This document shows positions 4,072 through 42,043 of a DNA stretch of 64,000 bases, piece by piece. This DNA comes from Bolinopsis microptera (lineage: Eukaryota > Ctenophora > Tentaculata > Lobata > Bolinopsidae), in assembly GCF_026151205.1 (NCBI RefSeq), contig NC_087075.1:11206303-11270302 (forward strand). Reading direction: 5' to 3'. Position 1 is the first letter of the stretch. Every line of letters starts with the position of its first letter. Position numbers and translations under genes: made by a program. A model generated the notes under the pieces. The model made no database searches. It was given only the letters and a program-made list of their open reading frames with translations, and was not told the DNA's origin.

Positions 4072-4204
4072 GTGTTTTGTATCATTTAATATTTGGTGAT
4101 ACAATAGCTGTTTTTATTGGACGCTACAATTAGTTCCAACGGACCAACTGTTTTTTGCACATTTCTTGCATATATTTTTTGTATTTCATAGCATTTCTTA
4201 GAAT

Positions 4205-4375
4205 TTCTTAGTATCTTTTGGTATTTGTTGGTATTCCTTGGTATTCGTTGGTATTTGTTGGTATTTGTTGGCATTTGTTGGTATTTCTTACCATTTTTTG
4301 GTATTTGTTGGTATTTGTTGGTATTTGTTGGTATTTGTTGGTATTTGTTGGTATTTGTTGGTATTTGTTGTTCTG
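4205..4375 (+). repeat. 10-bp minisatellite (ttggtatttg)n, short allele
   Basis: About seventeen imperfect 10-bp units, ttggtatttg with variants such as ttggtattcc. The matching array in copy 2 (about 23494-23865) is roughly twice as long. It lies immediately upstream of the acceptor of a gene 1 exon, so it is intronic or 5' flanking. Confidence 0.85.
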
Positions 4376-4394
4376 ACCTCTAACCATCCCTCAG

Positions 4395-7300
4395 TTGGGT
4401 GCACGGTGGGTCAGTACAGAGCAGAAGGGATGTCTAATTGTCATCGGTGTCCTGCTGCTCAATTCACTAGCTCGGCTGGCAGCGCAAGTTGTGTTGAATG
4501 TGAAGCAGGTCAAACACCCAACAGTGAGAGATCTGCCTGCGGTGAGATATATAATTAACTAGATATCTAATTAGAATTTATCTAAGTTTTACCATAAAAA
4601 GGATATGTATGTGTGTGTTATGTATATATTATAATCACTCCTCACTCGAACCTCTAGATCAAACTTACAAAATACAACCAACCTTACCCCCCACACTTAC
4701 CCCTTACACCTACCCCTCACACTTACCCCTCACACTTACCCCTCACACTTACCCCCAACACTTACCCCTCACACTTACCCCTCACACTTACCCCTCACAC
4801 TTACCCCACACACTTACACTTCACACTTACCCCTCACAATTACCCCTCACACGTACACCTCACACTTACCCCTCACACTTACCCCTCACACTTACCCCTC
4901 ACAATTACCCCTCAAATCTATGTCCGCCTGGTAGTGGTATATTTGGTATTACCAACTTTATTTAATGAACCAGAACTAAAACAGTTTAGTTTCCAGACGT
5001 TTACCGGAAATTACTTTTTCCGAAATTACTTTTCCCTAAAGGCTAAAATTAACAAATATTTTATTATTACAGTGGCTTGTCCAGTGGGGAAGTACAGATC
5101 TGGTACCATGATACAATGTGAGCTGTGTCCTGCTGGTTCTATGAGCAAAGTTGCGGGGCAATCTGAGTGTTCATCTTGCGGGCCGAACGGAGTCAGCTCT
5201 GCAGCTGGATCTACTATGTGTAAGGGGTGTGGTGACGGAACAGTCCCTACCTCTGATTTTACAGATTGTGGTAAGAATTAACCAATCTCAAATAATTAAA
5301 ATTGATCAGAGTTTAAAGTTGTCTGTTTTTCTGGTGTGTAAACTGAGGCGTGCAGTTTAAAATAGTTATCTATTAAAGATGCATGGTTTACCAAATAAAT
5401 CAATTTCTAATTTCAGTACCATGCCCTGCCGGAACCAAGCAATCCGGAAACGTACAAGAATGTTCATCTTGCGGTCCGAACGGAGTCAGCTCTGCTGGAT
5501 CTGCTATGTGTATGGGGTGTGGTGACGGAAGAGTCCCTAACTCTGACTTTTCAGCTTGTGGTGAGAATTGGTCAATCTCAAAGAATTGTAGAATTGATCA
5601 TGCTGTTTACACTAAACAGTTGTCAGTGTTATGATAGTTTACTGATATGCAAAATAGAGGGGCACAGTTTAAAATACCATATCGAACCTTATTTGGTCGG
5701 AAATTTTGTGAGCACTGAAGGTTCACGTAATGTTCGCTCAACTTAAAGTTCAGCTACTTTGTACAATGTACTTCCAATAAGTTTGTACGCCCATAATTAT
5801 GTCCTCCCACGAAATTTTTGCCAAAAACAAAGTCCGACAAGGTGATTTATTTATCAAAGATGCATGGTTTACCCAATAAATCAATTTCCAATTTCAGTAC
5901 CATGCCCTGCCGGAACTAAGCAATTCGGAAACGTACAAGAATGTTCATCTTGCGGTCCGAACGGAGTCAGCTCTGCTGGATCTGCTATGTGTATGGGGTG
6001 TGGTGACGGAAGAGTCCCTAACTCTGACTTTTCAGCTTGTGGTGAGAATTGGTCAATCTCAAAGAATTGTAGAATTGATCATGCTGTTTACACTAAACAG
6101 TTGTCAGTGTTATGATAGTTTACTGATATGCAAAATAGAGGGGCACAGTTTAAAATACCATATCGGACTTTATTTGGTCGGACATTTTGTGAGCACTGAA
6201 GGTTCACGTAATTTTCGCTCAAGTTAAAGTCCAGCTACTTTGTACAATGTACTTCCAATAAATTTGTACGCCCATAATTATGTCCTCCCACGTAATTTCT
6301 GCCAAAAACAAAGTCCGACAAGGTGATTTATTTATCAAAGATGCATGGTTTACCCAATAAATCAATTTCCAATTTCAGTACCATGCCCTGCCGGAACTAA
6401 GCAATTCGGAAACGTACAAGAATGTTCATCTTGCGGTCCGAACGGAGTCAGCTCTGCTGGATCTGCTGTATGTGGGGCGTGTGGACCCGGAACAGTCCCT
6501 AACTCTGATTTTTCAGCTTGTGGTAAGGGATCTGGGATATGTTTAGTCTCCTGAAGGTTTAGTTTGCCAAAAATTAAGTTTTTCGAAAATTACGTATTCC
6601 AAAAACAAGTATTTAATAATTTCAGAACAATGTCCAGCTGGAACCAAGAAATTTGGAGACGATCAGGAATGTTCATCATGCGGTCCGAACGGAGTCAGCT
6701 CTGCAGCTGGATCTACTATGTGTATGTGGTGTGGTGACGGAAATGTCCCTAACTCTGATTTTACAGATTGTGGTAAGAATTAACCAATCTCAAATAATTA
6801 GAATTGATCAGAGTTTAAAGTTGTCTGTTTTTCTGGTGTGTAAACTGAGGCGTGCAGTTTAAAATAGTTATCTATCAAAGATGCATGGTTTACCAAATAA
6901 ATCAATTTCCAATTTCAGTACCATGCCCTGCCGGAACCAAGCAGTCCGGAAACGTACAAGAATGTTCATCTTGCGGTCCGAACGGAGTCAGCTCTACTGG
7001 ATCTGCTATGTGTATGGGGTGTGGTGACGGAAGAGTCCCTAACTCTGACTTTTCAGCTTGTGGTGAGAATTGGTCAATCTCAAAGAATTGTAGAATTGAT
7101 CATGCTGTTTACACTAAACAGTTGTCAGTGTTATGATAGTTTACTGATATGCAAAATAGAGGGGCACAGTTTAAAATACCATATCGAACTTTATTTGGTC
7201 GGACATTTTGTGAGCACTGAAGGTTCACGTAATGTTCGCTCAACTTAAAGTTCAGCTACTTTGTACAATGTACTTCCAATAAATTTGTACGCCCATAATT

Positions 7301-10300
7301 ATGTCCTCCCACGAAATTTCTGCCAAAAACAAAGTCCGAAAAGGTGATTTATATGTATCAAAGATGCATGGTTTACACAATAAACCAACCTTTAATTTAA
7401 GATTCATGTCCTGCCGGAACCAGGAAATCTGGGATTGAACAGGAATGTTTATCTTGCGGGCCGAACGGAGTCAGCTCTGCTGGATCTGCAGCATGTGGGG
7501 GGTGTAGTCCCGGAACAGTCCCTAACTCTGACTTTTCAGCTTGTGGTAAGGGGTAGCAATATGCAATTTTTGTTTGCCATGTTTATTGATTATACTTATT
7601 ATACTCCTTTTATAATAAATAAATAATAACAATAATGATAATTTAAATTCTCCCCTTTAGTTAACTGCGGGCCTGGAAACTACATAAGCTCTGAAACAAT
7701 GTGTACGAAATGCCCACTCAACTCAATCAGTTCAAGAGCAGGATCTGTTTCTTGTAGTTCTTGCTCTATTGGGACAGTTTCTAATGCAGACAGGACTTAC
7801 TGTGGTATGTATTATTTTGAGATAGGTTGGATCATGATTTACCTGGGGACCCCCGACCCCTCACCCCAGGCTATCATGTTCAAAAACACTGTCATTCGGC
7901 ATAATGACAGGCTGAGCGCCGCCCAGTAAGGTTATGATGAGGTGTTGGGTATTTTAATTAGGGGTTATATTGGTCCACTCAGTCATCCGAAAGCTTATAA
8001 CGATGAAACATATAAGTGCATACTAATACTGAAGATAATAGAGAGACCGGACATGATTTTCCCAATACATACGTAGTCAGAAAAATAAATTTGTTGCCAT
8101 AACTGTATGAAAAATATCACTTATATTTCATTAAATTACCTAATTCAGGGGAATGGCGTTATAACTTACCACTTCCGGATTCATATTCATTGTATTAACC
8201 AATATTGACTTTGAGTCAACCGGACCAAAATGAATAAACAAAACATAATTTGTCCCTCTGCAAGCATTTCCAACTCTGCGTAAAGTTTCACCTTCAGATA
8301 CCTGTCCAGAAGGAAGTTACAGGGACTCCACCATGACAGAATGTGTGGTCTGTGGTAAAGTGGGAGAAGAACCGAGCTCTGGGCTCAACTCATGTGGTAA
8401 ATATGAATCTTTGCGAAACATATATGGTTCTATTTTAAAGCCTCCCCTCTAAAAATAAAATAACATAACTTTCCTCGATTATTTTACAAAAAGTACCGAG
8501 AGCATAATTGAATTTTGAGGTTCTTTGTTTTCAGTTCCATGTAAAGGCGGTACGTACAAGGACACATCTATGCAAGTGTGTAAACCGTGTGGAGCTAATC
8601 ACTACAGTGCTGAAGGGGCGGGAATCTGCATCCAGTGTCCGGTATTCAGCGCAGCCAGTGAGGATAAAACGGAGTGTGGTAAGATGATTTTTAGGAACCT
8701 TTTGTGGTAATTTGTGGTACTCTAATGGTATTCTTTGACAGTATGACAGAGATTATACTATTGTAAAATGTAGATATTTAACAGCTTTTCAGATCAACAG
8801 CGGCGATACAAATATTTATCCGTAGTAACCGAATATTCTGTCACACTAAAGAGTATATTATTCTACTTCAGTGTCCTGTAGCGGGCTACCCCAAACCTAC
8901 ACGAACATGCTGTCCAGTGAAAGGTTCCCCGTTCCACCCGGCACCGTGGTAACCATCACGTGTGAGCAAGGTCACTCTCATGTTGCAGGTGGTGCTGGTC
9001 TGGTTACTTGTGTAAGAGACAGGGTGTTTGATGTAGATGGAAATTTTAAGTGCGATAAAGGTGAGAATTAGATCTGGTTAAATATGTAATTGGGATAGTA
9101 AATTATTAGACGATTAATCAATAAACTAAACTATTAGATAATTGAGACAGTATTTTGCACACTTTAAAACGTTTTACATATCCTGTGTAATCGTTTGTAA
9201 TCCTTTGCCATCCGATCCCTCAGACATGTGCACAGGAGTTCCAAACATTCCAAACCTCACTTCACCCGGCACCGAATTCCCTGTGGAGTACGGCTCCCTA
9301 GTAACAGTCACGTGTCAGAGTGGGAGCTCTCTTCAGGGGGATGGAGTTATTACATGCCAGAGTGGAACTGAGTTCGTGCATGAGGCGGAGCCGAGTTGTG
9401 TGGAAAGTAGGTCCTGTATTTTTAATAGTGATGATGATAACCAGATTATTACACTTTTTTTGTGATTCAAAACAAAATACATCGCCTGCCCATGGATGCC
9501 AGTCGAAATCCCTTTCATAATTTAATCTTTCGTAATAGTCGGTATTCTTACTTTCTTATCTACTGTAGAATTCTACCGGCGAAAGTTGAGTTTTCCACCA
9601 TGTTCAGCTGTGCAGATCCCGTAAACACCACTAACTCATATTACCACAGAGAGGTGCACTGGGTTACCTCCTCATATAGACCACATCACCACCACAACAA
9701 GTTTCCCTACTGCCCACAGTACTGTGGTAACTGTGCTCTGCGACCCTGCTTCTGGAGCTCAACTACGTGGTAAGACCAGTTTGAACATATTTCTCATGCA
9801 AAAATGAAAATGTTTGTCTGGACGACACTATGATTTCAGTTCAGAAACAGAGTTTGGAGGTGAAGCCACTGATACTTCGCTACACATGGGTGATGGGTTC
9901 CATCTTCTGAGTCCCACCCCTCGCAGGAGATCATATCTTGATAATCTCTGTGTCTCAAACCTCTACCGTCAGCTTCTTGGATAAGTGCCAAGATTTCTAG
10001 AGCTCTTAATCACGTGATCTATTTCAGGTGACAGTTCTATAACGTGTGATGATACAACTTCATTTACGTTCGAAGAGACACCACGCTGTAATGAACAAGG
10101 TTTGTTACTCCATCTTGGAAGTCTAAAAATATCATCCCAGATCAATCTGAAATCTGTTAATGAACCCTTATCTTTGTTCTAACTTTGTAGATTACGCTAT
10201 TAATTAAGTGAAAACACCAACAACACAAATGTATTCCTCACTCTCACACCAGGCAAATGTACAGAGCTACCTCCAAACCGTTACCTAGCAACAAACATCA

Positions 10301-13300
10301 TCTTCCCTGTACCCGCGGGAACCCAAATAATGGTGATGTGTGAGACTGGAACTACCCACACCTTAGGAGACAGTGTTGTCACGTGCGTCACAGATGATCA
10401 GTACACTTTTCAGCAGAGCATGCCTACTTGCTCTATTGGTGAGTACGGTTAGCCCGACGTCAGGGTTATTGTAGGTTTATTATCTACAAGACGTCAGGGT
10501 TGAGTCGGGCTTTGGTCAGGATAGCTTTAAGAATAAGTAGGAATTATCCTAAGACCTAAATTGATCGGGTTTCTGAGCGTCACGATAATATATTGAGTTG
10601 ACGAAGTTGTTTGAAGTATATCTAATCACAGTTTAACTATTGATAATTATTAATTAACCCTTCGCCTGCAGACACTTGCTCGGATCTACCGGATATATAC
10701 AACCTGATTACAGACACTCCCTTCCCTGTTGACTACGGAACTACAGTCAGGGTATCCTGCTTAGCTAGATATACGCTGGTTGGAGATGATGCTATTACCT
10801 GTGTGAAGGGCAGAACATTTCTAGTGGAAAATGCAATGCCTGGTTGCCAGCTAGGTTTGCAACAATTGTTTCTGTTCTTTTGATGAGGAATCCCGTCCGT
10901 AATTACGGGGTATACCTGACCAGTGACCATATACTACTACTAGTAATAATAGTATGTGCTAAAACTTTCCAACGGGAAGCAGATTTTAACAATAATTTTT
11001 TCCTTTTCACCCTTTTGAAAAAAGGCAATAGTGAAAGGTTACGAATGGAGGTTTTTGCAGAAAAAAGTGGATTTTGGAGATTGCAGTAGGTGGGTCAAAT
11101 ATATGTCGTGTTCCTTGCTTCCGTTCGTTACCAAGCAACGAAAAAGTTGCGCGCGCGCGAGGATTGCTTGCAGAGATGTGATGTATAGATAGCTTGTGAT
11201 CTATAAGTATAAATGCGCGGCGCGACTGTGTTTTAATGTATATGATGCATGTAATGTATAATATTATTATTAGGTAATACGCCCAATTTGTACGTGGCAC
11301 GCGTAGTGTATTGATGTGTACACGAGTATAGTTTACCTTTGCTGATAATTTCTTGAATTACAGATACAAGTTAAGTTTTACGGCAATTGAACTGAATTTT
11401 TCCCCGTATTTGATGCATAATTTATCAATATTACTATCATGAAGATTGAAGTGAGCTGATTGGAGCTTATACTTAAATTTATAGTAAATGTGAAATGGAA
11501 ATCTAGCGTCCGCCAAAACGAAACAACGGGCGCAATTCTTGTTGTTTGAATAATCCCAATATCTCCCAGACGAATGCACGGAACTGCCCAACCTTCCAAA
11601 CATCAAGACAAACACTACCTTCCCTGTGGTTGTTGGGACGGTGGTAGAACTGTGGTGTATTCCCGGATACACCCTTCAGGGAGACTCTCAGATAACCTGT
11701 CTTAATGGAAAGGAGTACTTGATCAGCTCCCCTCCGAGTTGTCAGGTCAGTTTCTTTTCCTCTTGAGTGGAACTAACCTCGGGTTTCAGTGCTTTTATGA
11801 CTTAACTACTTAACTAGTGTAACCCGGCCTTCGGCCGGGATTTCACTGCCGCAGTTAAAAAGGGTAGGAGTAATTACCCGCTGATTCAAAACCCAAATTA
11901 GGTGAGCAATTCTATTCGGAGTGCCCTCACGTATACAATAGTATCTTAAACAATAATCTCATAATCAGTTCTTTCTCGTGTCATTATTAGACACCACATT
12001 CCATGATCATAAGGTCCGAACACCGACTATTACACCTCATCACTCCCGTCTTGAACCGCTTTCCATTTTTATTTAAATCGTTTTAGAACCACCACACCCG
12101 CCTATTATATTTGAAAAACGCATAACATTGTCGTATGAAAGTATGAACTCTCTCTGCAGTTCAAACAGACCCCAAACAGTGCCCCCTCCCTTATAAGATT
12201 ATAGTATAACATGGCAGCGAATCTTATCCCGCTAACCCAATTCTCCAATTATGGTTATTACTTATGCAGCTACATCATACATATACAGTAATGTGTAATG
12301 GGAGAGAGAACGAGCCCCGTAACTCTTACCGTTTTCTTGATTAAGCTGCTCCAGCCATTTTATGTAACATTTGTGGTACAAAACCATCAATTATACCACT
12401 TACCACCGACCGATTTAAAAAACCTTTGCCATTTAACTTCGTCAGAGTTTTGTCGGCACTTTACCGAAAAAATCAGCCCCGTAATTCTTACCGTTTTCTT
12501 GATTAAGCCGCTCGGAAATTACACACGCACACACAGAAAACACACATTCATTTTGAGATTATTGATTAAGATACTTCTGTCAAGGCCGGGGCCCGGGGGT
12601 CCACTCCTGGGGGTATGACTATGAGAGTATTTTAGGACACTAAGACTTGGCCTTCAAACCAACAACAATTCATCTGCAGAATTGATAAACAAATAATTTA
12701 ACCGTCAATAAGTTAACAAATCCCCAGATTGACACGTGTAATGAGCTGCTCTTTGTGGACGATCTGCAAACAAACGCTACCTTCCCCCTGTTGTACGGGA
12801 CCCCCGTGACAGTCTCATGTGACTCGGATACTCTCACCTTGTTGGGAAGTGAGGTGATATTCTGTGAGGTGGGCACCACCTATCAGTTCCTTTCCCTTCC
12901 CAGATGTGTGGACAAAGGTAAGACATTCGGTCTGAACGAGGCCATATAGTTTTGTATAAATGCTTAGACTTGATATTTTTTATGAGCCGTTGGCTTATTA
13001 TATTATATAGATCTTCAGATCTTCAGATCAAGAGATTAAAATAAATTGTAAATGCAATTTTTTCATCGTTGGTGATTTTAATCTCAATGGAGTAGATTGG
13101 TTTTCTGAGGACGGAATTGTTACACCTTCTAGTTTAATTGAAGAGGACTTCATTACAACATTCCATAACTTTGATCTAGATCAATGTATAAGTAGTCCTA
13201 CACATGTTAAGGGTAACATACTAGACCTTCTTTTGAGTAATTGTAAAAATTTAGTAAGAGATCTTACGGTATTGAAGGGTCACGGTGCTTGCAAATCTGA

Positions 13301-16519: not shown

Positions 16520-16692
16520 TTTTAGCCTGCTGGGATAACAGGGATCACATAAATTCGTTCAGTATTTTATAGTACTCGATCTTCTGCAGCATCCCTAAAT
16601 CTAAAAATCAAATTGATACTTTTGCCTTTGGCCGTGTCAAGGACGAATTAGTTGGCATAAAACACAATTCACGATTGTGGTGCTAGAAGTAG

Positions 16693-16939
16693 GATTCCGA
16701 CTTAATTGACGATGTCAATTCATCTCAGCTCGGCGAGTCGGCGCGGTACAGTAGCGCATCTCGCCGATCTAGCGCATCTCGCGGCACAGTAACGCATCGC
16801 GCTACAAGATTCCGACTTAATTGACGATGTCAATTCATTTCAGCTTTGGATCGGACTTCGCCGCTTCGACGCGCCGCGCAAACTAGCATTCTTGCTTCGC
16901 AGAGCAACGATCTCGACGGATTGACATCGTCAATCAACG
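16693..16939. repeat. GC-rich foldback MITE, copy 1
   Basis: The element starts gattccgacttaattgacg and ends gattgacatcgtcaatc, with the inverted motif ttgacgatgtcaa at both sides and near the middle. Internal sequence has repeated tagcgcatctcgc units. The paralogous position 39261-39505 carries the same element, so it predates the segmental duplication. A relative lies at 563-690. Confidence 0.6.
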
Positions 16940-17764: not shown

Positions 17765-17773
17765 GCTATTGCT

Positions 17774-30300: not shown

Positions 30301-33300
30301 TGCTATCACCTGTGTGAAGGGCAGAACATTTCTAGTGGAAAATGCAATGCCTGGTTGCCAGCTAGGTTTGCAACAACTTTTTTCTGTTCTTTTGATGAGG
30401 AATCCCGTCCGTAATTACGGGGTATACCTGACCAGTGGCCATATACTACTACTAGTAATAATAGTATGTGCTAAAACTTTCCAACGGGAAGCAGATTTTA
30501 ACAATAATTTTTGTTTGAATAATCCCAATATCTCCCAGACGAATGCACGGAACTGCCCAACCTTCCAAACATCAAGACAAACACTACCTTCCCTGTGGTT
30601 GTTGGGACGGTGGTAGAACTGTGGTGTATTCCCGGATACACCCTTCAGGGAGACTCTCAGATAACCTGTCTTAATGGAAAGGAGTACTTGATCAGCTCCC
30701 CTCCGAGTTGTCAGGTCAGTTTCTTTTTCTCTTGAGTGGAGCTAACCTCGGGTTTCAGTGCTTTTATGACTTAACTACTTAACTAGTGTAACCCGGCCTT
30801 CGGCCGGGATTTCACTGCCGCAGTTAAAAAGGGTAGGAGTAATTACCCGCTGATTCAAAACCCGAATTAGGTGAGCAATTCTATTCGGAGTGCCCTCACG
30901 TATACAATAGTATCTTAAACAATAATCTCATAATCAGTTCTTTCTCGTGTCATTATTAGACACCACATTCCATGATCATAAGGTCCGAACACCGACTATT
31001 ACACCTCATCACTCCCGTCTTGAACCGCTTTCCATTTTTATTTAAATCGTTTTAGAACCACCACACCCGCCTATTATATTTGAAAAAACGCATAACATTG
31101 TCGTAAACGGATTAAACGGATTAAACGGATTAAACGATTCAAAAGTCAAATTACAATGGTAATGTCTGACAAGATAAAAAAATTAAATTTACCCAAAAGT
31201 CATAAAGTATATATATATACTTTATGACTTTTGGGTAAATTTAATTTTATATACAATGATTTATTTTAATATATATACAATGAACCCCGTAAGTGAGATT
31301 CAAAATACTTAATAATTTAAATGAACTTTTCTGAAAGTGTTCCGAGTCATAGATTATAATTTGGCAATATTGTTAATGTTAGGAATTTGTTTGGGGGATG
31401 CTTTTGGTGGCAAGAGATTTTTATAATCTCAGGAAATAGTGATCGTGTAACTTATAACCTCTCCTATTTCAATGACCATAGTACTACACCCTTTACGAGG
31501 TGCCACTATTAAGTACAGTAATCTGTTCTGGGTGATTCCAGTTTAAACAGATGAGGTGCAACAAAAAACTATGGATCTAGACCAGTAAAGGTCGATAAAA
31601 AACTACCAGGTTCGAGGGGCCAGCTACCCTTCAGCCTTAAAATAGCTACTGAAACATCAATGAATAACCAAAAGTGGAGTGACTCTCGGAGTTCAAGGAA
31701 GGGTGTAGCCAGGATGAAGTGCTCTGGGCAAAGCCGCAAGGACCCCAGTGTGCAGATGAGAACAAAGAAGTCGCCTTATTTCAACAGTGTTATTAGTTCA
31801 CAGCATATCACTCATGTGGACCCGGAGAAGGGGAGAGCACTCCCATGCAACTTTATCAAACACAGCATTAATGTGGGAACGTGGAATGTGTTATCATTGG
31901 AGAGCAGTTCCTCAAAGCTGTATGAATTGTCACAGAATATGTCAGCATATAAAATGGATGTCTTGGGGCTGACAGAGACGCACAGACCCGGCACTGGTGA
32001 GGTTACCTTGGATGATGGGTCCCTCTTTATTAACTCAGGAAGAAGTGATGGATACAGACGACAAGGGGTAGGTTTAGTCCTCTCGAAGAAGACTAAAAAT
32101 TCATTGATTTCATACAGTCCGATATCAGAACGTATTCTTGCAGCGAGGCTGCACAGTCGACATATCAACATTTCGATTGTGATAGCTTATGCTCCAACTG
32201 AGGATGCAGCAGTCGGGGTAAAGGATGACTTTTATCAGCAGCTATCTGGGGCATTTGATGAACTACCAGCTCATGACGTGAAGTTTTTACTTGGAGATCT
32301 AAATGCTCGCATTGGCCAAGATAATTCAGCTTGGTCCGGTGTGATTGGTAAGCATTCCCTTCACGTTTCATCAAATGACAACGGCCTTCGACTATTAGAT
32401 TTCTGTGCATTACATCAGCTGACAATCGGTGGGACGCTTTTCCAGCATCGTGATATTCATAAAGGAAGTTGGAAGTCTCCAGATGGCCGCACAGTAAATC
32501 AGATTGACCATGTCTGTATTTCTACCAAGTGGAGTCACTCTCTACTTGACGTAAGATCATGCAGGGGTGCAGACATTGGCTCCGATCATTATTTGGTTCG
32601 GGGTCAATTTAGAGTCAAACTTATGGCAGTTCAAAAAATGAACGCTTCTCGTAGGATATCTCCAGCAATTGAGAATCTTAGAGATCAGTCCAAGGTTGAA
32701 GAGTACTGCATTGCTCTTCAAAATCGTTTTAGCTGCCTACCAATGGAGGAGAATCTTGATGGAGAATGGACATTAGTTAAGGATACCATTAAAGAAGTGT
32801 CTATGGAGGTACTGGGTGAGCGCCCCCGGCGCAGAAAGCAGCAGCATTTGTCTCAGGAGACAAAAAGCCTTATTGCAGAACGCAGTAAGATTAAACAGAT
32901 GGCGCCTAGTGACAACAACAATAGGAGCGAGTATTCTCGGAACATCACTGTTGAAGACACGCCAGTGCAGCAAGTTAGTGATTTTACGTACTTAGGTACA
33001 ATTATTTCCAGCGACGGTACTATCGACCGTGAGTTGTCAGCTAGGATTCAGAAAGCTTCCGGAGCCTTCAATCAACTGAGTAATATATGGAAAAACCGCA
33101 ACATCCAGTCTTATACAAAGATCAGGATTTATAAGGCAGCGGTTTTGACAATATTGTTATATGGTAGTGAGGTTTGGAACACAACCAAAAAGCAGCTACA
33201 TCGCTTTGAGGTGTTCCATCAGCGTTGCTTGAGGAGAATACTTAGGATAAGATGGCTCGATCGGGTTAGAAACACTGAAGTGCTGGAGCGTGCAAAGATA

Positions 33301-36300
33301 AATCCAGTAGAGACGTACATAGGAGCAAACCGCCTGCGTTGGTTTGGCCATGTCACCAGAATGCCAGACACTAGGCTTCCTAAGTACCTGCTTAACTGGA
33401 CCCCTGCCCATGGGAGAAGATCTAGGGGCCGTCCAAGAAAGAACTGGAGGAAATGTTTGCTGGAAGATGCTGCAGCGTTTACAGGAAACACTGACATAGA
33501 CCTAGAAGGAGCGAGCGAGATGGCTAGTGACCGCAAACTTTGGAGGGAGATGATACGTCACAAACGGGAGTTCATTGGTGCAGGCCACTCGAATGATTGA
33601 GGAGACCTAATCAAGTACAAGTAAGTATGCTTTAGGGAATCTTCGTTCATGAGCTTTGGTAAGGAACCTTCCTAGGTCTCCGATGGTTGTAGGGTGTGCG
33701 AAGATCTGTCCAATGTCAGAGAAGAGTAATGTTTTACTTTGTTGGGACAAACAATGGCGGAGATCTTCATAGAGAGGGCAAATACGCAATACATGAAGTT
33801 CATCTTCGATGATTGGATCAGGGAAAGGAAGCTCTAGAAGAAGATCGAGTGACTCCACATCTGTAGTAGAACAGTGTTTGCATGCCCTATTCGAAAGTTT
33901 TTGTCGATGCATGCCGTGTCTTCCAGTTTCGATGTTGTATTGATGCGAGCTTGTTCTGAGTTGCGCAAGTCTCCTAGTCTGCTGTGGCCGTAGGTTGATC
34001 GACAGGTATGTTTCGCAACCGAAGCTTGCCTTGATGAGGTTGTAGAATCCTAGTTTTCTGTTGAGTTTTCGCTCTTTGTTCCATTGTTGAACGAAAAGGG
34101 TTTTCATAGCCTCGCTGATTTTGAGCGGGTTTGAAATATCACTTCCTCCTGTCAGTTCTTTCACTGTGTTCTTGGTGGATTCCAGCCGGGAGAACCATAA
34201 CAGTTTCAGATCCCTCTGCTCGGCGTAAGCGTGCCTCACTAAAGAAGAGCATCCCTCTTTGTCCAGTCCCTCCAACCTCCCGAGGTAGCTATAGACTTGG
34301 GACGTAAGCTCGATGGCAAGCGGGTATCTTCCAGTGTCACCCCACACAGCGGTGTTTGAAGTCGATTTGTTGACATTCATAGTCCATTTCATAAATGATA
34401 GGTGAACTTTCTCCAGGGGGTCTTTTGCTGTATCCTGAGAAGCCGGATAACTCCCCGAAGCAAAGATAGACATGAAATTTGTCATGGGAAGCCAGATCTG
34501 ACACCCGTAGGATAGAACAGGAACAATCAGAGTGTCGAAAAGCTTAAACACAGTTGTCTTCCGGAGGTATCGGAGGTCAAGCATACTCTTGAGAGAGAAG
34601 TAGCTCCGGAGCCCTTTTTGTCTAAGCTTTATCTGAGCAAGTTTTAATGATCCCGTGAGTGTGAACGTAATTCCAAGATATGTGTACTCACGCACTGATG
34701 GCAAGGTCATTTCCCCGTAGACAAAATTAGTACTGTCCTTGAGCACCCGTCCTGCCCGGTTAAACACCATAATTGCTGTTTTTGATATGTTAACCGATAA
34801 CCCCCACTCTTGACAGTAGGTGTGTAAAACTTCTAACATTCTTTGAAGACTCTCTTGATCGAGAGCCAACAGAATCAGGTCATCGGCCCAGAGGAGGTGG
34901 GTTACTCTAGTACTTTTCAGTAACGGTACTTCGACATTTTCCATAGAATTAAGGTCTTCTGATAGTTGGTGTATGAAGCATTTGAAGAGTTCTGGAGACA
35001 TGGGGTGTCCTTGTTCAGTCCCGCAAAGAACATCGATCTTTTCAGAGAGCTTGTTCAAGAGCTTGATTTTTGCTTTGGAGTTTGTGTACATGAACTCCAT
35101 GCAACCAAAGAATCTTCCTTTGATGCCTAGTTTCCAGAGTTTGTACAAGAGTGCCTCCCGGCAGACTGTATCAAACGCTTTGGCGTAGTCAACAAAACAG
35201 GAGAACAATCTGCCTTTGTTAGCTTTTACATATTTTTCTATGCAAGTCGACAGTGTCAATATATGATCTGCTGTTTGCGCGTTTTTGCAAAACCCCAGTT
35301 GATTGGGGGTGTCAGGGTTTGTCTCAGCACGGAATTTTATAAGTCTCTGGAGGAGAATACTTGCAAACAGTTTTCCCACGTTGCTGGCTACTGCAATTGC
35401 CCTATAGTTGTTGGGATCGTAGATGTTGCCTTTTTTGTGCAGAGGCGTCACAACAGATGTTCCCCAGGGATAAACTCTGTGTGATAAACATAGGTTAAAG
35501 AGATGCAGTATAGCGCACTGCATATGTTTTCCAGAGAGTTTGATAAATTCATTGGGGATTAAATCCTCCGACACTGCTTTCCCTTTCTTGAGCACTCGAG
35601 TACAAGCCAACAGTTCTTCGGAGCTTATGTCTTGGTCAAGGATTTCTGTGAGTGTTTGCTGGGTGGCATCTCTGTCCATTTCGTCTTGTAGTTCTTTTAT
35701 TTTCTTTGGGCTGATCGATGGTTTACTATACAGCTCTTTGAAGAATTTGCTGAAGTTAAGCATATCAAACACGTCCAATTTGCTTCCATTTGTCTTCATA
35801 TCTTTAAGCCTCTTGAAACGGGACCAGTTAATATTTTTGCCTCGTTCGATGTCACTACATAGGTCCTCTATGAATGCAGACTTTTTAAGTTTTATGAGTT
35901 TCCGATATGATCGTCGACTTTCATAGTAAGAGTCTCTGAGTTTTTTATTTGTAGGATTTTTGCCGTAACTTTTGGACAGTTTGTTCAACTCCCGCTTGCC
36001 GTTTATACAACTTACATCAAACCACGGAGCTTTGGGCTTCATCCTTTGTCTCCTTTTTCTTTTCTTTTTCTTTTTCCGCTCATCATTTTCCTATCTGGCT
36101 TGTTCCTCGGACCCTTTGTCGGAAGAATAACATCGGCAATGTCTTGGAAGATAGATACGAGTTCTTCATTAAGACACAAAACTTGTTTTCTGTCTGTGCA
36201 TTGGGTTTCCGCGATTCGGGTTATTTTCTGAACAAATTCTGGCGAATTCTGGATCGCATGAAACTGAAATTGAAGTTTCTCGTCCTCATTATCCCATTTG

Positions 36301-39093
36301 TATTTTTTAGGTGCGTCTTCTAGTGTTTCAAGTAGATCCTCTGCATCAACCAAGTTGTGTTTGTGCTTTATTTTGCAGATGCACGGCTTGTGGTCAGAAA
36401 ATTTGTTAAGATTCTGCACTTGGAATGACAGCACTGATTCCAACAATTCAGGTGTGACTGCCATATAGTCAACTACGCTGGCACCATTGTAGTTGACAGA
36501 GGTATATTCCCCAAAGATGTCTCCCAGTGTATTACCATTTAGCAGCAATAGTCGATTACAAGCGAGGAAATCTAACAGTAGGTTACCCCTAGAGTTAAGT
36601 ACTTGATCCTTGCTTACTCTCCCGCTAGTCTTCGGATGGCTGGAGGGGATTTCATCTGGTTCAGAGTTAGGGTCGTCATCTTCAAATTCGAAGTTTGTGT
36701 TTCCAGTACGGGCATTTAGGTCACCCACCAGCAACATCTTGCCAAGATCGGGATTCTGAGCTTTAAAGTCAAGGAGGTGCTCTAATGTTGTCATGTAAGG
36801 GGAGCCATCTCCAGCCTTGCGTTTTGACTTGTACGACGACTGCTCTGGTGAGTCGTAGACATTGATGATGGTGAACTTGTTTTCCATATCATTGGGATAG
36901 AAAGTAATAGCTTGGAAGTCAGGGCAATTTGTTTTGACTAGCTTTACTTGTTTTGAAATTGAGCGATGTACCCCAATGCAAATTCCACCCGATCGAGAGC
37001 CTTTTCTTGTGCTGTTGAAGCACTCATAGTTGGGGAGAAAAAAGTCCTGTTTGGTTTCTTGCAGGCAAAAGACGCTGCTTTGTGTCAGGATGTTGACAAA
37101 GTCACTGTCTTCCATTTTGGGCCCTTCTTGGCTCATAACCGAGTCGTGGATGTTCCATGATAAAATAGGGAGGTTTTCGAGCATAGTGACCTTTTGTGCG
37201 ACAGGAGGCAATCTGTGTGTTTTATTCATTTAGAGTCCGTTCCTTTGAGAGTGAGCTAGCGTTCGGTAGGTCAAGGCATCTATAGAAGCAATCTTTGAGC
37301 CTCAACCAGAGTAACCTCTTTCCGTTCTCGTTAATAGAGAGGTCTCTATTTTGGGAGTTGGATAGTCTTGTAACGAATCCTCCAAGACGTTCGTTACAAG
37401 AGCAGTATATTCTGTCTGCAAAGTTTCCTCGCCTTCTTAAGTACGAGACAAAGTTCGAAACTTCTTTGTTAACGTATAATATGTCTTCATTTATGTCCGG
37501 TAATCCTGGTATTGGGATCATCAGCGAAATGCATACTTTAGCTGATGTAGATTCCAATAGATCATATACAAGTTTTTTGTAGTTTGCAATGAGGTCTTTT
37601 GGGGTGGTTTTGTTTTTATACAAATCTTCCAGTCCAGCGTGAATATAAATAAGGTCTGATTTTAGATTACGCATGAAAGTATGAACTCTCTCTGCAGTTC
37701 AAACAGACCCCAAACAGTGCCCCCTCCCTTATAAGATTATAGTATAACATGGCAGCGAATCTTATCCCGCTAACCCAATTATGGTTATTACTTATGCAGC
37801 TACATCATACATATACAGTAATGGGAGAGAGAACGAGCCCCGTAACTCTTACCGTTTTCTTGATTAAGCTGCTCCAGCCATTTTATGTAACATTTGTGGT
37901 ACAAAACCATCAATTATACCACTTACCACCGACCGATTTAAAAAACCTTTGCCATTTAACTTCGTCAGAGTTTTGTCGGCACTTTACCGAAAAAAATCAG
38001 CCCCGTAATTCTTACCGTTTTTTTGATTAAGGCTTAAGCCGCTCGGAAATTACACACGCACACACAGAAAACACACATTCATTCTGAGATTATTGTTTAA
38101 GATACTCCTGTCAAGGCCGGGGCCCGGGGTCCACTCCTGGGGGTATGAGAGTATTTTAGGACACTAAGACTTGGCCTTCAAACCAACAACAATTCATCTG
38201 CAGAATTGATAAACAAATAATTTAACCGTCAATAAGTTAACAGATTGACACGTGCAATGAGCTGCTCTTTGTGGACGATCTGCAAACAAACGCTACCTTC
38301 CCCCTGTTGTACGGGACCCCCGTGACAGTCTCATGTGACTCGGATACTCTCACCTTGTTGGGAAGTGAGGTGATATTCTGTGAGGTGGGCACCACCTATC
38401 AGTTCCTTTCCCTTCCCAGATGTGTGGACAAAGGTAAGACATTCGGTTTGAACGAGGCCATATAGTTTTGTATAAATGCTTAGACTTGATATTTTTTATG
38501 AGCCGTTGGCTCATTAAATTATATTTAAGAAGAGATTAAAATAAATTGTAAAATGCAATATTGGAAATTACTTTTCTACAGTTGTTTTTTGAATTTGATG
38601 TTATGCCACTATTATCAAGTATCTATCAATGTACATAAATTCGTGTCGTACGATTAATATGTTCATGAATGTGGATTCTGGTAGGGAGATGAGGCATATT
38701 TGTTTACCTGAAAGAGTGAAAGTTGACACGTGATCAATCCATGGAATTATTCCATATATGGTTATTGGTATAATTACCTCCCCACCAGAATCCACATCTA
38801 TCCACGTCCTTGTGCATTGTTTGTGTCCAAAACTCATTGATGTTTTAAACGTTTTAAGCGATCAAAAACTGATGATTTTGACAAAAGAACTTGTACACTT
38901 AACGTCAGATATCAATTTAACTTGGCTGGCCATCCCCTCTATCCGTATTTCTTTTACTTAATTTAGAGCCAAAAAGAAACGAGCCACATTCAGAGACTAG
39001 CAAACTGGATGAATATTAATTTAGCAAGTGTTCATGGTCATGAAAAAATGAAATTTTTGGCATTTTCACTTTTCAGACTACGCTAAGATTTAA
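21235..39093 (+). CDS. Gene 2: secreted modular protein, signal peptide + ephrin-receptor-like (GCC2/GCC3) modules + seven sushi domains
   Basis: Exons by splice phase: 21235-21319 (start and signal peptide), 22075-22335, 22446-22895, 23098-23259, 23885-24031, 24237-24383, 24601-24747, 24864-25010, 25186-25332, 25598-25741, 25845-25991, 26138-26281, 26428-26571, 26862-27005, 27121-27264, 27793-27891, 28028-28171, 28384-28572, 28728-28910, 29154-29273, 29539-29610, 29764-29949, 30183-30365, 30539-30714, 38244-38433, and probably 39077-39093 (DYAKI, stop). Total 4119 nt, in frame throughout, 1372 residues. Almost every exon is phase 1-1, the classic shuffled-module layout. Six-Cys modules fill about residues 300-930, four-Cys sushi domains the last 430 or so. 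Sushi domains lack the usual Trp before the last Cys. No TM segment or GPI signal was seen, so secretion is inferred. Partner and role are unknown; the domain mix resembles matrix or innate-recognition proteins. Confidence 0.75.
22075..22335 (+). CDS. Gene 2 exon 2: Cys module interrupted by a Gly/Ser/Asp repeat
   Basis: The module starts NCPAGTYF and ends CWSCPGVTTATSDKTSCG. Between them lies a low-complexity insert of SGGGGDY-like units encoded by near-perfect 18-bp repeats (ggtggaggaggcgattat). The insert probably acts as a flexible spacer. Opposite-strand and other-frame openings here are shadows of the repeat. Confidence 0.75.
22446..22895 (+). CDS. Gene 2 exon 3: unrecognised 150-residue extracellular domain
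   Basis: A single 450-bp phase 1-1 exon encodes an entire domain with one cysteine (YIICEHH) and many aromatic and beta-prone stretches (RIVWKFENKQDHW, RVALLGKIGSTFYI, GWGASYYYWQVVAEYS). I do not recognise the family. A beta-sandwich is possible from the alternating hydrophobic pattern, but that is inference. The duplicated copy 1 does not contain it in this window. Confidence 0.7.
23494..23865 (+). repeat. 10-bp minisatellite (ttggtatttg)n, long allele
   Basis: Roughly 35 units of ttggtatttg and close variants in the intron upstream of the exon at 23885. As ten is not a multiple of three, the array cycles through frames with a 30-bp period. It happens to contain no stops, which gives long spurious open frames on both strands. 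Confidence 0.9.
23885..28171 (+). CDS. Gene 2 module block: thirteen six-Cys (ephrin-receptor-like) exons
   Basis: Exons of 144 or 147 bp (one short at 99 bp, 27793-27891) each encode one module: CPAGT..., C-x2-[11 protein letters not shown]...C-x2-C, VPNSDF, CG. All begin after cag and end at TGTG|gt, leaving phase 1. Neighbours share intron sequence, so they arose by repeated tandem duplication. Disulfide pairing would follow the GCC2/GCC3 pattern; ligand unknown. Confidence 0.85.
25401..25503. mobile_element. 103-bp insertion with 9-bp target duplication
   Basis: The intron between exons 25186-25332 and 25598-25741 contains 103 bp flanked by gtgttttct (25392-25400 and 25504-25512). The related introns at 26040 and 26335 have the site only once. 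The left end folds on itself (gtaggtttataacctac). It is too short to code and is probably a MITE remnant. Confidence 0.7.
28384..38433 (+). CDS. Gene 2 sushi/CCP block: seven domains in eight exons
   Basis: Each domain has the four-cysteine sushi layout: C-x-GLP or C-x-ELPN at the start, FPV/FP..YGT-V-V-x-C, then G...ITC, then PxC at the end. The third domain is split over 29154-29273 and 29539-29610. The exon at 30539-30714 ends in phase 0 and the next at 38244 begins in phase 0; all others are phase 1. A 7.5-kb intron, swollen by LINE insertions, separates domains six and seven. Copy 1 has the same set at 8872-12917. Confidence 0.85.
31107..31135 (-). repeat. Tandem 9-bp tail repeat (aaacggatt)n
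   Basis: Three units plus a partial one lie exactly at the left edge of the insertion. Read on the minus strand this is (aatccgttt)n, which fits a short tandem tail at the 3' end of a LINE. Confidence 0.65.
31179..31248. repeat. Perfect 70-bp palindrome
   Basis: Two 35-bp arms pair without mismatch around the centre gtatatatatatac at 31213/31214; the arm includes tttacccaaaagtcataaag. The RNA would form a long hairpin. It lies about 45 bp inside the left end of the insertion. Confidence 0.85.
31660..33600 (+). CDS. LINE-derived ORF: complete AP endonuclease joined to RT C-terminal region, RT core missing
   Basis: A 646-codon frame. Residues about 70-320 form a complete APE endonuclease: VGTWNVLSL, LTETHRPG, AYAPTED, LLGDLNARIGQD, VNQIDHVCIS, GSDHYLV. 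Around residue 420-428 the sequence jumps to the post-palm region of an RTE-like or BovB-like RT: VSDFTYLGTIISSDG, KAAVLTILLYGSEVW, RLRWFGHVTRMPD. The fingers and palm, including the catalytic aspartates, are absent, yet the frame stays open across the junction. It cannot encode an active RT. The 5' flank (31270-31659) looks like a LINE leader. The stop is 6 bp from the stop of the opposing ORF. Confidence 0.8.
   Translation: MNNQKWSDSRSSRKGVARMKCSGQSRKDPSVQMRTKKSPYFNSVISSQHITHVDPEKGRALPCNFIKHSINVGTWNVLSLESSSSKLYELSQNMSAYKMDVLGLTETHRPGTGEVTLDDGSLFINSGRSDGYRRQGVGLVLSKKTKNSLISYSPISERILAARLHSRHINISIVIAYAPTEDAAVGVKDDFYQQLSGAFDELPAHDVKFLLGDLNARIGQDNSAWSGVIGKHSLHVSSNDNGLRLLDFCALHQLTIGGTLFQHRDIHKGSWKSPDGRTVNQIDHVCISTKWSHSLLDVRSCRGADIGSDHYLVRGQFRVKLMAVQKMNASRRISPAIENLRDQSKVEEYCIALQNRFSCLPMEENLDGEWTLVKDTIKEVSMEVLGERPRRRKQQHLSQETKSLIAERSKIKQMAPSDNNNRSEYSRNITVEDTPVQQVSDFTYLGTIISSDGTIDRELSARIQKASGAFNQLSNIWKNRNIQSYTKIRIYKAAVLTILLYGSEVWNTTKKQLHRFEVFHQRCLRRILRIRWLDRVRNTEVLERAKINPVETYIGANRLRWFGHVTRMPDTRLPKYLLNWTPAHGRRSRGRPRKNWRKCLLEDAAAFTGNTDIDLEGASEMASDRKLWREMIRHKREFIGAGHSND
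33607..36042 (-). CDS. LINE ORF: reverse transcriptase (811 aa)
   Basis: RT motifs in order: VSEDLIPNEFIKL, VVTPLHKKGNIYDPNNYRAI, CFVDYAKAFDTV, GTEQGHPMSPELFKCF, then LLWADDLILLA near 34880 (ADD catalytic pair, Trp before it), then FNRAGRVL and YTYLGITFT. The C-terminal region has a CKHCSTTDVESLDLLLELPF-type His/Cys stretch. The ATG overlaps the stop of the endonuclease ORF as ATGA (36039-36042). The frame is intact, so the copy looks young. Confidence 0.85.
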   Translation of the reverse strand: MKPKAPWFDVSCINGKRELNKLSKSYGKNPTNKKLRDSYYESRRSYRKLIKLKKSAFIEDLCSDIERGKNINWSRFKRLKDMKTNGSKLDVFDMLNFSKFFKELYSKPSISPKKIKELQDEMDRDATQQTLTEILDQDISSEELLACTRVLKKGKAVSEDLIPNEFIKLSGKHMQCAILHLFNLCLSHRVYPWGTSVVTPLHKKGNIYDPNNYRAIAVASNVGKLFASILLQRLIKFRAETNPDTPNQLGFCKNAQTADHILTLSTCIEKYVKANKGRLFSCFVDYAKAFDTVCREALLYKLWKLGIKGRFFGCMEFMYTNSKAKIKLLNKLSEKIDVLCGTEQGHPMSPELFKCFIHQLSEDLNSMENVEVPLLKSTRVTHLLWADDLILLALDQESLQRMLEVLHTYCQEWGLSVNISKTAIMVFNRAGRVLKDSTNFVYGEMTLPSVREYTYLGITFTLTGSLKLAQIKLRQKGLRSYFSLKSMLDLRYLRKTTVFKLFDTLIVPVLSYGCQIWLPMTNFMSIFASGSYPASQDTAKDPLEKVHLSFMKWTMNVNKSTSNTAVWGDTGRYPLAIELTSQVYSYLGRLEGLDKEGCSSLVRHAYAEQRDLKLLWFSRLESTKNTVKELTGGSDISNPLKISEAMKTLFVQQWNKERKLNRKLGFYNLIKASFGCETYLSINLRPQQTRRLAQLRTSSHQYNIETGRHGMHRQKLSNRACKHCSTTDVESLDLLLELPFPDPIIEDELHVLRICPLYEDLRHCLSQQSKTLLFSDIGQIFAHPTTIGDLGRFLTKAHERRFPKAYLLVLD
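36039..37229 (-). CDS. LINE ORF: AP endonuclease (396 aa), separate from RT
   Basis: APE-type motifs: LSWNIHDS, FCLQETKQDF, IINVYDSPE, LLVGDLNARTGN, VVDYMAVTPE, FSDHKPCICKI. It ends in a basic tail (RKMMSGKRKRKEKGDKG) and then TGA. In most LINEs this domain is continuous with the RT. Here an ATGA overlap separates them, so the arrangement is either a natural stop-restart or a single frameshift. Its start overlaps the end of the upstream ORF by 8 bp. Confidence 0.85.
   Translation of the reverse strand: MNKTHRLPPVAQKVTMLENLPILSWNIHDSVMSQEGPKMEDSDFVNILTQSSVFCLQETKQDFFLPNYECFNSTRKGSRSGGICIGVHRSISKQVKLVKTNCPDFQAITFYPNDMENKFTIINVYDSPEQSSYKSKRKAGDGSPYMTTLEHLLDFKAQNPDLGKMLLVGDLNARTGNTNFEFEDDDPNSEPDEIPSSHPKTSGRVSKDQVLNSRGNLLLDFLACNRLLLLNGNTLGDIFGEYTSVNYNGASVVDYMAVTPELLESVLSFQVQNLNKFSDHKPCICKIKHKHNLVDAEDLLETLEDAPKKYKWDNEDEKLQFQFHAIQNSPEFVQKITRIAETQCTDRKQVLCLNEELVSIFQDIADVILPTKGPRNKPDRKMMSGKRKRKEKGDKG
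37222..37672 (-). CDS. LINE ORF1 fragment: SGNH/esterase-like domain, 5' truncated
   Basis: About 149 residues: LIYIHAGLEDLYKNKTTPKDLIANYKKL resembles block III of SGNH hydrolases (GxND-like, here GLED), followed by VCISLMIPIPGLPD and a C-terminal LSINENGKRLLWLRLKD. CR1-group LINEs often carry such an esterase in ORF1. The frame is cut by the insertion boundary at 37672, so the domain's beginning, including the nucleophile block, is lost. Confidence 0.65.
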
Positions 39094-39260
39094 TTTTAGC
39101 CTGCTGGGATAACAGGGATCACATAAATTCGCTTAGTATTTTATAGTACTCGATCTTCTGCAGCGTCCCTAAATCTAAAAATCAAATTGATACTTTTGCC
39201 TTTGGCCGTGTCAAGGACGAATTAGTTGGCATAAAACACAATTGTGGTGCTAGAAGTAGG

Positions 39261-39505
39261 ATTCCGACTTAATTATAACGATGTCAATTCATCTCAGCTC
39301 GGCGAGTCGGCACGGCACAGTAGCGCATTTCGCCGATATAGCGCATCTCGCGGCACAGTAACGCATCACGCTACAAGATTCCGACTTAATTGACGATGTC
39401 AATTCATCTCAGCTTTGGAGGACTTCGCCGCTTCGACGCGCCGCGCAAACTAGCATTCTTGCTTCGCAGAGCAACGATCTCGACGGATTGACATCGTCAA
39501 TCAAC
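39261..39505. repeat. GC-rich foldback MITE, copy 2
   Basis: Paralogous to 16693-16939, with the same ends and only small differences. Being present at the same place in both copies, it predates the duplication. Confidence 0.6.
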
Positions 39506-39832
39506 GATTTACTTGAATCTCAAAAATGGCGAGCTGGAGGCCAGTCTTACTGCTAAAACATTTAATGAATATTTTACGGGTATGGGTACTAATGCAGAAA
39601 TAAATTACGGTAGAATACACTACAGCACATCCTCCGGTTCCTGTACACCCTTCGTGGGGTGTGGTTTACTACTAGTACTGTCTTGTACGTCATGTTCAGC
39701 TCTAAGATTGTAGCTCTAGCATCTAGTAGTTTACCAGCATCCAGTGGCATGTTTTTGGATGCCAGGCCACTAAAGGGGACAAGCCGTCTCAGACTTTGGT
39801 ACATTAACTTGAGATGACTTTGGTTATACTTA

Positions 39833-40022
39833 TACCGTTACTGTCACCAAGATGTAATCAGATCGAACGCAGAAATTAGATCGAACCGGTTTGATCTAGG
39901 AATTAGATCGAACGCTGGCGCGAGATACATATACAAATACATTGAAAGCCGCGCCGCGCGTTCGATCTAATTCCTAGATCGAACCGGTTTCTGCGTTCGA
40001 TCTAATTATATCTTGGTGACAG
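39833..40022. mobile_element. 190-bp foldback element with 9-bp target duplication
   Basis: About 70-bp inverted arms (actgtcaccaagat... and ...atcttggtgacagt) contain repeated agatcgaacg units. Direct repeats ttatactta flank it (39824-39832, 40023-40031). Copy 1 lacks the element at the matching point near 17255, although the site there is also 6 bp shorter. No protein coding. Confidence 0.75.
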
Positions 40023-40411
40023 TTATACTTAATGCTATTATCTGGACCTGGGTTAAGTTTGTGTTGTGTATCAGTGATCAGGTCGTGACCCCCATTGCCC
40101 CGATACAGCCGCGCGACGGATTTACAACGTGTGACAAGGTTAAGTATGCTAATGCTATTGCTTGTATTGCAGATTACAAGCAAAACTAACCCAACTAAGT
40201 TTAACAAAACGAAATTCATATTTAATCCAATTTCTGTCCCATTTACAAACATGAAAATTTCGGAACACAATTTTGACAGAATGGTATGAAACCAAATTGA
40301 AGTACTGAAGTCAAAATCCCGAAGAAAATTGAAAAATCATACTGTCCCATTTTCGAAGATGAGATTTCAAGGATATGGCAACTATAATTTTTCGGAATTA
40401 TGACACGATTG

Positions 40412-40785
40412 CGCTCCTACTAAATCGCTCGCCCAAATTTTAAGAAAATTCTTGTGAAAAGGCCCTTTGGGTATGAAATTGATCGGGATAGGTGTATTTT
40501 TGGACGCTGATTCCGAATCACCCCCATGACGTAGGGTAAAAATGCTTCCCTGGAGAGTTATGGGCAAAAAACCGTTTTGGTCACGTGACAGGCTAGTAAA
40601 ACATGAATTCGATTGTTTAGGGCTCGGGTTAGGGTTAGGGTTGTGGTAAGGGTTATGGATAGCTTCGGGGTTATGGTTAGGGTTAGGGTTGGGATTAGGG
40701 TTTATGTAAAACCGTTTTGTACGGCTGTAAAACCATAAAAACCAAAGTCACGTGAAATTTTTGGGCGAGCGAATTAGTAAGAGCC
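40412..40785. mobile_element. 374-bp MITE with internal TTAGGG-like repeats (copy 2 insertion)
   Basis: Flanked by acacgattg (40403-40411 and 40786-40794); copy 1 has this once at the empty site near 18046. The terminal inverted repeats are about 28 bp (cgctcctactaaatcgctcg against ggctcttactaattcgctcg). The interior shares ggacgctgattccgaatc and TTAGGG-like units with 17390-17764. No transposase, so it was mobilised in trans. Nine-base duplications suggest a Mutator-like source. Confidence 0.85.
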
Positions 40786-40794
40786 ACACGATTG

Positions 40795-41894
40795 AGGTGC
40801 TCAGGTGCTGGAAGTTTGACTTCGGTCCGAGGAAGCTCAATGATTTTTGTATACGTTTTGTACATTAAACTTTTCTTGAAAAATGAAAGACGCTTTTTCA
40901 CAACTACCAAAAGTTACCCAGGGAAATAAGACAAATATCACATTTCTCTTGATCAATGATGGATCATGTATTCAGCATTCAGAATTATTAAATTGAAAAC
41001 TAGTGTTCTTCCCAGTTAGCCTGAGCTCACACGATCACATAGATATATTTTATAGTCTTGACACCAAAACTTCATAGCACAGTTAGATCGGGTAAAAGTT
41101 ATCAATATGTGAAAATATTGGAAGGCAGATCGGTAGATGGAACGAAAGGGTTATCAAACCTGGCACACACGATCAATAAAGGTTGAGTATTTCGTCTGAT
41201 GAAGGTACTTCTGAGATAAAATAATTAACCTACACATGTAATGGGTGTAATACAAGTGGGTTCCCATTTCTATTGATCATATATGACACTTTTACAGAAT
41301 TCTTGCGATCCAATTAATGACCCACCCGATATATCTACCGATAATAACACATAGGGTAACACGCTCAGGAGCAATACTTGGAAAATTAGCTGCGGGCGTG
41401 CCATTTATAAAAGACGCCCAAGTGTGAAATGAGCCATCGCGCTGAGCTCAAGATTTGTCAGCTGACACGAACTTTAGTGCCCTTATATGGCGTCTTCTTC
41501 AAACGGCTTAAAATCTCCACTAATCAGATTGAGGCAGATCTCTGAAGTTTGCTTTCTTTATATTTACCAATCAGATCCTCTAATAACAGATATACAACTA
41601 ATATCAAAATGGGAGGAGCTTGCTTAAAGTAGATTTGTGTAAATACACTGTACTAATACTGTATAATAGAATATGTTCACCGATTACAAATAATTTTACA
41701 AGATATCGTTTGACAATTAACAGTGTTAACTAAGCAAAGACCGCAATCCGTAAAAAGTAAACCAATCTTGATCCCTAAACTTTCAAATCAAAAGACCTAG
41801 ATGGAATTCAACGCTTTCATCTCCGACCGAGTAAATAACGGCCGAAGATTTCAGATGCTTTTTCCAATTTCTCTCTCTCTCTGTACGATTTTAA
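40795..41894. other. Copy 2 sequence without genes
   Basis: Matches 18055-19240 of copy 1 with small indels, including a 45-bp copy-2-specific stretch near 41216-41260. No gene recognised. Confidence 0.45.
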
Positions 41895-42031
41895 ATTATT
41901 TAGCTAAACACAAGGAAATATTTCCGTCGTTGCACATGGATATGAATTAATTGTACATCTCGAGCATGGGTATAAGTTTGTAGATCTAAGTTAACACCGT
42001 TCAGGCACTGCGCCACTTGATTACAATTTGT
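41895..42031 (-). pseudogene. Truncated, frameshifted remnant of the Cys-rich gene
   Basis: It matches the 3' end of 19259-19400 but carries a 4-bp deletion after the LQTY codons, which destroys the downstream cysteine pattern, and a 6-bp loss near the end. The duplication boundary removes everything upstream. It now directly follows the SZRD1-like stop codon on the same strand. Confidence 0.65.
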
Positions 42032-42043
42032 CCTCTACATTTT

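Follow-up and report, generated by a model that had tools for sequence, protein, structure and literature searches.

False duplication in genome assemblies was described by Ko et al. 2022 (PMC9516828), where falsely duplicated neighbours were joined by gaps or by incorrectly filled gaps. The locus described here was found in a window of 64,000 nucleotides (the whole stretch of DNA that was analysed, C4:11206303-11270302) from the ctenophore Bolinopsis microptera. Like false heterotype duplications (PMC9516828), it consists of neighbouring, collinear copies of a gene body with allele-level divergence, and one of the two is missing its ends. As in those cases, the assembly was built from long reads, the animal was probably heterozygous, and there appears to be a wrongly filled gap at one end. 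Unlike in the described cases, the filled gap is located on the outside of the pair and not between the copies. The locus also resembles a recent tandem segmental duplication with gene conversion, in that the copies are direct, adjacent and 2-3% divergent and share a more similar central tract, but it differs in that the unit boundaries are not repeated, there is a single spacer and a single 3' flank, and the left end appears to be an assembly join. The insertions that distinguish the copies are like those in empty-site comparisons of transposon insertion polymorphisms: there are seven, with relatives at 98-100% identity where these were searched for, and nothing essential differs from this ordinary case. 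Finally, the predicted protein is similar to secreted or ectodomain proteins that combine GCC2/GCC3 (ephrin-receptor-like) and sushi/CCP modules, in that it has a signal peptide, each phase 1-1 exon encodes one module, and the sushi modules score above the Pfam cut-off. It is different from these proteins in that its GCC modules do not reach the gathering score of Pfam, no Pfam family matches one of its exons, and neither a transmembrane segment nor a clear last exon was found.

The Bolinopsis microptera assembly was produced from PacBio CLR reads with wtdbg2, HiRise scaffolding, TGS-GapCloser, Purge Haplotigs, and Pilon, and its assembled size is 265 Mb compared with a k-mer size estimate of 254 Mb (PMC10232365). 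The published assembly of 265 Mb comprises 13 chromosomes, the largest of 26.2 Mb, with a G+C content of 38.5% (PMC11797021); the sequence searched in this study totals 264.65 Mb and has 13 large contigs. In the ctenophore Hormiphora, heterozygosity is 2% for single nucleotides and 3.2% in total (PMC8527503). We place at about one half the probability that the first copy in the window (A) represents the gene body of the second copy (B) on the other parental haplotype, in other words an uncollapsed, false heterotype duplication.

Self-alignment of the window, which had been proposed as a check on the original prediction, showed that the homology between A and B is real at the sequence level. 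The two blocks are collinear and direct, both on the plus strand, and extend from 4072 to 19409 (A) and from 23357 to 42035 (B), compared with predicted extents of 4072-19405 and 23357-42031; exons, introns and flanks all align. Chance similarity was excluded by the collinear alignment of 15 kb at 90-99% identity. The possibility of a larger array or multi-copy family was rejected because the unique body matches just two places: in a search of the 265 Mb assembly, the only full-length matches to 8020-10990 were A and B. No RNA families were found in the window. To the right of the module array there were 177 differences in 7557 aligned columns (2.34%, K2P 0.024), made up of 103 transitions and 74 transversions. 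This is compatible with the single-nucleotide heterozygosity of 2% in Hormiphora, a value that belongs to that ctenophore and not to Bolinopsis microptera (PMC8527503).

Analysis of the left end of A identified a raw-read-like patch (X; 3182-4061, plus strand), which repeats A 4455-5268 with many errors and includes a truncated first module, a 13-bp minisatellite, and a hybrid exon. Comparison of X with A 4455-5268 gave 762 matches, 28 mismatches, 61 insertion events (49 of a single base) and 14 deletion events, a strong bias towards insertion (p = 4e-8). In control comparisons of A with B, indel events were balanced and rare (7 versus 8, 6 versus 4, and 9 versus 7), and most changes were substitutions. 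Insertion-dominated error at such a rate is the profile of a raw PacBio CLR read. At the 20 sites that distinguish A from B, X was identical to A at 15 and to B at two. The stretches of the left flank that could be compared (1046-1772 at 99% and 3115-3181 at 97%) had no such error pattern, and the transposons within A and B were clean of raw-read-like errors. An origin of X as an old extra module block was rejected, since nearly all of its divergence consists of extra single bases, unlike any A/B comparison. Because X is an A-type copy with insertion-dominated errors right at the start of A, the left end of A is best explained as a hidden assembly join, and apparently an unpolished fragment of an A-type read was used to fill this join, or lies at its end, at the very position where A starts. 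Gap fillers put in such unpolished fragments (PMC7476103). The hidden join favours the reading of A and B as alleles, as does the published combination of CLR reads, wtdbg2, HiRise, TGS-GapCloser and Purge Haplotigs with an assembly larger than its k-mer estimate.

The position of X also counts against the allele reading. X is at the outer end of A and not between the copies, so a second, traceless false join would be needed between A and the spacer; and if X is a true spanning read, it links A to the left flank with no spacer in between. Such a linkage of the left flank straight to A-type modules, together with the single-copy state of the 5' exons, would fit a structural allele, in which one haplotype consisted of the left flank, X and A without 5' exons, the other had the spacer and B, and the assembler strung both together. 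However, X may be a chimera or may have been put in the wrong place because of repeats, and the exons of A are intact, which an allele without a start would not need; we consider a structural allele of this kind improbable.

The spacer between the copies (19410-23356, plus strand) bears the 5' exons of the gene. A copy search of the window and 30 kb of flank found no second copy of the spacer, other than a dispersed repeat of approximately 75 bp, and no second copy of the sequence beyond B (from 42036). The homology ends at 19409 in A and at 42035 in B; A and B are homologous end to end, and neither flank of A is common to B. Since A matches B end to end, and the spacer and the sequence to the right of B have no second copy beside A, the arrangement looks like a haplotig placed next to its partner.

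If most of the gene had instead truly been duplicated in tandem, the unit would run from the spacer to 42035, and the 5' exons of the first copy would have been lost or would lie in a gap to the left of A. In that case the spacer or the 3' flank should recur. Neither was found again in the window or the 30 kb around it, for which later loss or an assembly gap may be responsible. The hidden join at the left end of A also argues against a tandem duplication. On the other side, the sequence is gapless through A, the spacer and B, a search for a raw-like patch or N at the A/spacer join found none, and the read in the patch sets the left flank directly ahead of A-type sequence. A tandem duplication is therefore quite possible, if short of probable, and the uncollapsed haplotype, the outcome that had been named in advance as refuting a duplication, is at least as likely. 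The prediction of a segmental duplication held for the paired homologous blocks, but the patch at the left end of A, the unshared flanks, and divergence compatible with the heterozygosity of Hormiphora leave duplication as only one reading of them.

The junction between A and the spacer cuts into a repeat, two relatives of which on C2 run at least 300 bp past the junction point and are 87% identical to each other; these two lie next to each other and may stem from the duplication of a single unit. Because the C2 relatives continue past the junction, the repeat copy in the spacer seems to break off at that point, where either a contig ends or a real breakpoint lies, and this hints at the allele reading. 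A minus-strand open frame across the junction (19262-19585) was considered as an exon that would prove a native join, and was dropped when the C2 relatives were found to match the spacer side only.

Divergence between A and B was uneven along the pair. A scan statistic with permutations identified a tract of low divergence (A 10387-12931, plus strand) that holds the sites of a 543 bp and a 6.6 kb insertion. Divergence was 0.56% in this tract versus 2.97% outside it, and the scan statistic exceeded all 200 permutations; in non-exonic columns alone the values were 0.65% versus 3.16% (p = 8e-9). The tract is the product of gene conversion if A and B are paralogues, and of ordinary variation in coalescence time if they are alleles. 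Such a distinct tract fits a tandem duplication, under which the copies would have taken up transposons separately and the two insertions in the gene-conversion tract would be younger than the conversion, but uneven divergence is expected between alleles too. Because they lie inside the low-divergence tract, the 543 bp and 6.6 kb inserts should postdate the average A/B split under either reading.

From its sequence, the gene is predicted to encode a signal peptide followed by cysteine-rich GCC2/GCC3-like modules and sushi modules. As had been proposed, the only visible gene start is in the spacer. Sequence inspection placed exon 1 at 21235-21319 (plus strand), with an ATG and the signal peptide MICYMLLSVSALTVIMMTTLPMANA, followed by a phase-1 donor at 21320. 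Other 5' exons in the spacer are at about 22076-22334, 22447-22895, and 23101-23261. The third exon (22447-22895, plus strand) encodes a domain without a Pfam match, and a genome search found it in a single copy; because this exon occurs once genome-wide, the assembly contains no such start that belongs to A. Downstream of the 5' exons are one-module exons of phase 1-1, encoding six-cysteine GCC2/GCC3-like units and sushi units. The sushi modules (PF00084) scored above the curated Pfam cut-off (34.6 and 27.8 bits versus 20.7). The best score to the GCC2/GCC3 ephrin-receptor-like family (PF07699) was 22.1 bits, under the gathering score of 23.1, and these modules are hence called GCC2/GCC3-like only. 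Neither a transmembrane segment nor a clear last exon was found 3' of the final sushi exon. A possible last exon after it, at about 15993 in A and 38585 in B, has a two-T difference that would alter the C-terminus.

Thirteen exons that correspond one-to-one between A and B have open frames and do not differ in length; they contain 17 synonymous changes in 456 sites and 20 non-synonymous changes in 1476 sites (dN/dS 0.36). With these exons open in both copies and this dN/dS, the possibility that A is a decayed pseudogene was rejected, and the same exons favour the allele reading, even though A is without a start in the assembly.

There are 10 GCC2/GCC3-like modules in A and 12 in B, plus one half module in each. 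Only A has a 481-bp tandem array of module exons (5366-6524, plus strand; 2.4 units, 92-97% identical), and a module exon in B (24242-24385, plus strand) is missing from A. An exon in A (5078-5272, plus strand) is a hybrid, the 5' half of which is similar to the B exon at 24606 and the 3' half to the exons at 25850 and 6631, joined in frame. The hybrid exon is also present in X, which is apparently an independent sequence of an A-type molecule. Module gain, module loss and a hybrid exon are what unequal exchange between near-identical exons would be expected to produce. Unusually fast ectodomain turnover, in a secreted sushi/GCC-module ctenophore gene that has an in-frame hybrid exon and varies in module number between alleles or paralogues, is an unlikely explanation.

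Sequences related to this gene were also found elsewhere. Two places on C4 that are 5.8 kb apart (C4:5615529 and C4:5621340) have identical scores and are pieces, approximately 80% identical, of a sushi exon and intron of this gene. The same locus matches window positions 52198-52401 at 89%, and is possibly a gene fragment captured in a repeat. On C12, sushi exons at 977815-979793 and 1119515-1121504, 142 kb apart, also have identical scores, which may represent another recent duplication or uncollapsed haplotype.

Each copy was predicted to contain mobile elements missing from the other, and base-by-base examination identified seven large insertions, each facing a site in the other copy that is empty or almost so. 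The insertion points had been described as exactly delimited, which was accurate for the 384 bp and 391 bp inserts, where target duplications are clear (9 and 8 bp), but only approximate for the 543 bp, 2.9 kb, 6.6 kb, and 205 bp inserts; no clean target duplication was found at the 543 bp, 2.9 kb or 6.6 kb insert.

Four of the insertions are in A and empty in B. The first (10999-11541) is a 543 bp non-autonomous element about 30 bp upstream of the splice acceptor of a sushi exon, from a family in which at least 39 further full-length copies were found, the best at 98%. The second (13060-15976, plus strand) is a 5'-truncated non-LTR retrotransposon with a reverse transcriptase open frame at 13233-15572 (RVT_1, E 2e-30) and relatives at 99.7-100% over 2.9 kb. 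The 384 bp insert (17381-17764) comprises an element and one GCTATTGCT target duplication, and 378 bp of it has a match at 100% on C11. The fourth is a 152 bp insert (18099-18250).

The largest insertion in B, empty in A, is 6,568 bp (31105-37672) and was resolved by Pfam and genome searches into two nested non-LTR elements. The outer element is on the minus strand (31105-31407 and 33629-37672), is 5'-truncated with 9-bp 3' repeats, and has uninterrupted copies at 98-99% on C6, C10, and C13. The inner element is on the plus strand (about 31408-33628), with an in-frame internal deletion and the target duplication ATGCTTT. At 31660-33600 it has a single open frame in which an endonuclease is joined to the C-terminal end of the polyprotein and most of the reverse transcriptase is missing in frame; many relatives are 99% identical up to about 32940. 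The non-LTR inserts of A and B matched RVT_1, Exo_endo_phos and Exo_endo_phos_2 in Pfam and have length-variable copies with one common end; a reverse transcriptase linked to an EEP-type endonuclease and variable 5' truncation are characteristic of non-LTR retrotransposons. B also contains a 205 bp element with inverted ends (39828-40032); A is without it and is also a few bases short of a clean empty site. The 391 bp insert in B (40412-40802), empty in A, consists of an element and the target duplication CACGATTG, with relatives at 95-99%. Degenerate TTAGGG-like repeats are present within this element at 40617-40702, and its family is numerous genome-wide.

The insert families searched, which were those of the 384 bp, 391 bp, 543 bp, 2.9 kb and 6.6 kb inserts, were all young and multi-copy, and since relatives 98-100% identical were found elsewhere in the genome, these families have been recently active. 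The proposed use of the locus as an assay of recent transposition is supported, as the empty-site logic holds and each insertion postdates the A/B split.

Other elements were found to the right of the copies. A 1,063 bp inverted repeat (48487-49549 and 50907-51969, 99.8% identity) consists of head-to-head pieces of a reverse-transcriptase element. By eye its C-terminus is similar to a GIY-YIG nuclease, as in Penelope-like elements; Pfam gave RVT_1 only, under the cut-off. An open frame of 948 aa at 58935-61781 has PHD-like and zinc-knuckle-like motifs by eye and no Pfam match, and is probably a retrotransposon ORF1.

From the observed homology, insertions, intact exons, raw-like patch and unshared flanks, we infer that A and B are most likely alleles. 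There would then be a single gene, which begins in the spacer with the signal peptide and the other 5' exons and continues into phase 1-1 GCC2/GCC3-like and sushi exons. The other haplotype of its body would have been retained as a short contig and scaffolded beside B as A, and the gap at the left end of A closed with the unpolished long-read fragment X. The differences between A and B would be allelic variation, comprising 2.3% substitutions, module counts changed by unequal exchange, and seven transposon insertion polymorphisms.

Transposon polymorphism and changes in repeat number are ordinary between alleles or young paralogues; the concealed gap fill is a useful caution. The empty sites are valid under either reading, and between alleles they are ordinary insertion polymorphisms. 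If A and B are alleles, the locus is a warning against inferring gene duplication or paralogue evolution from this assembly, and divergence made up of insertions only would offer a way to spot hidden gap fills that needs no reads. If the duplication is real, seven insertions from several families would be dated against known empty sites, and module gain, module loss and exon fusion could be followed within one gene at 2-3% divergence.
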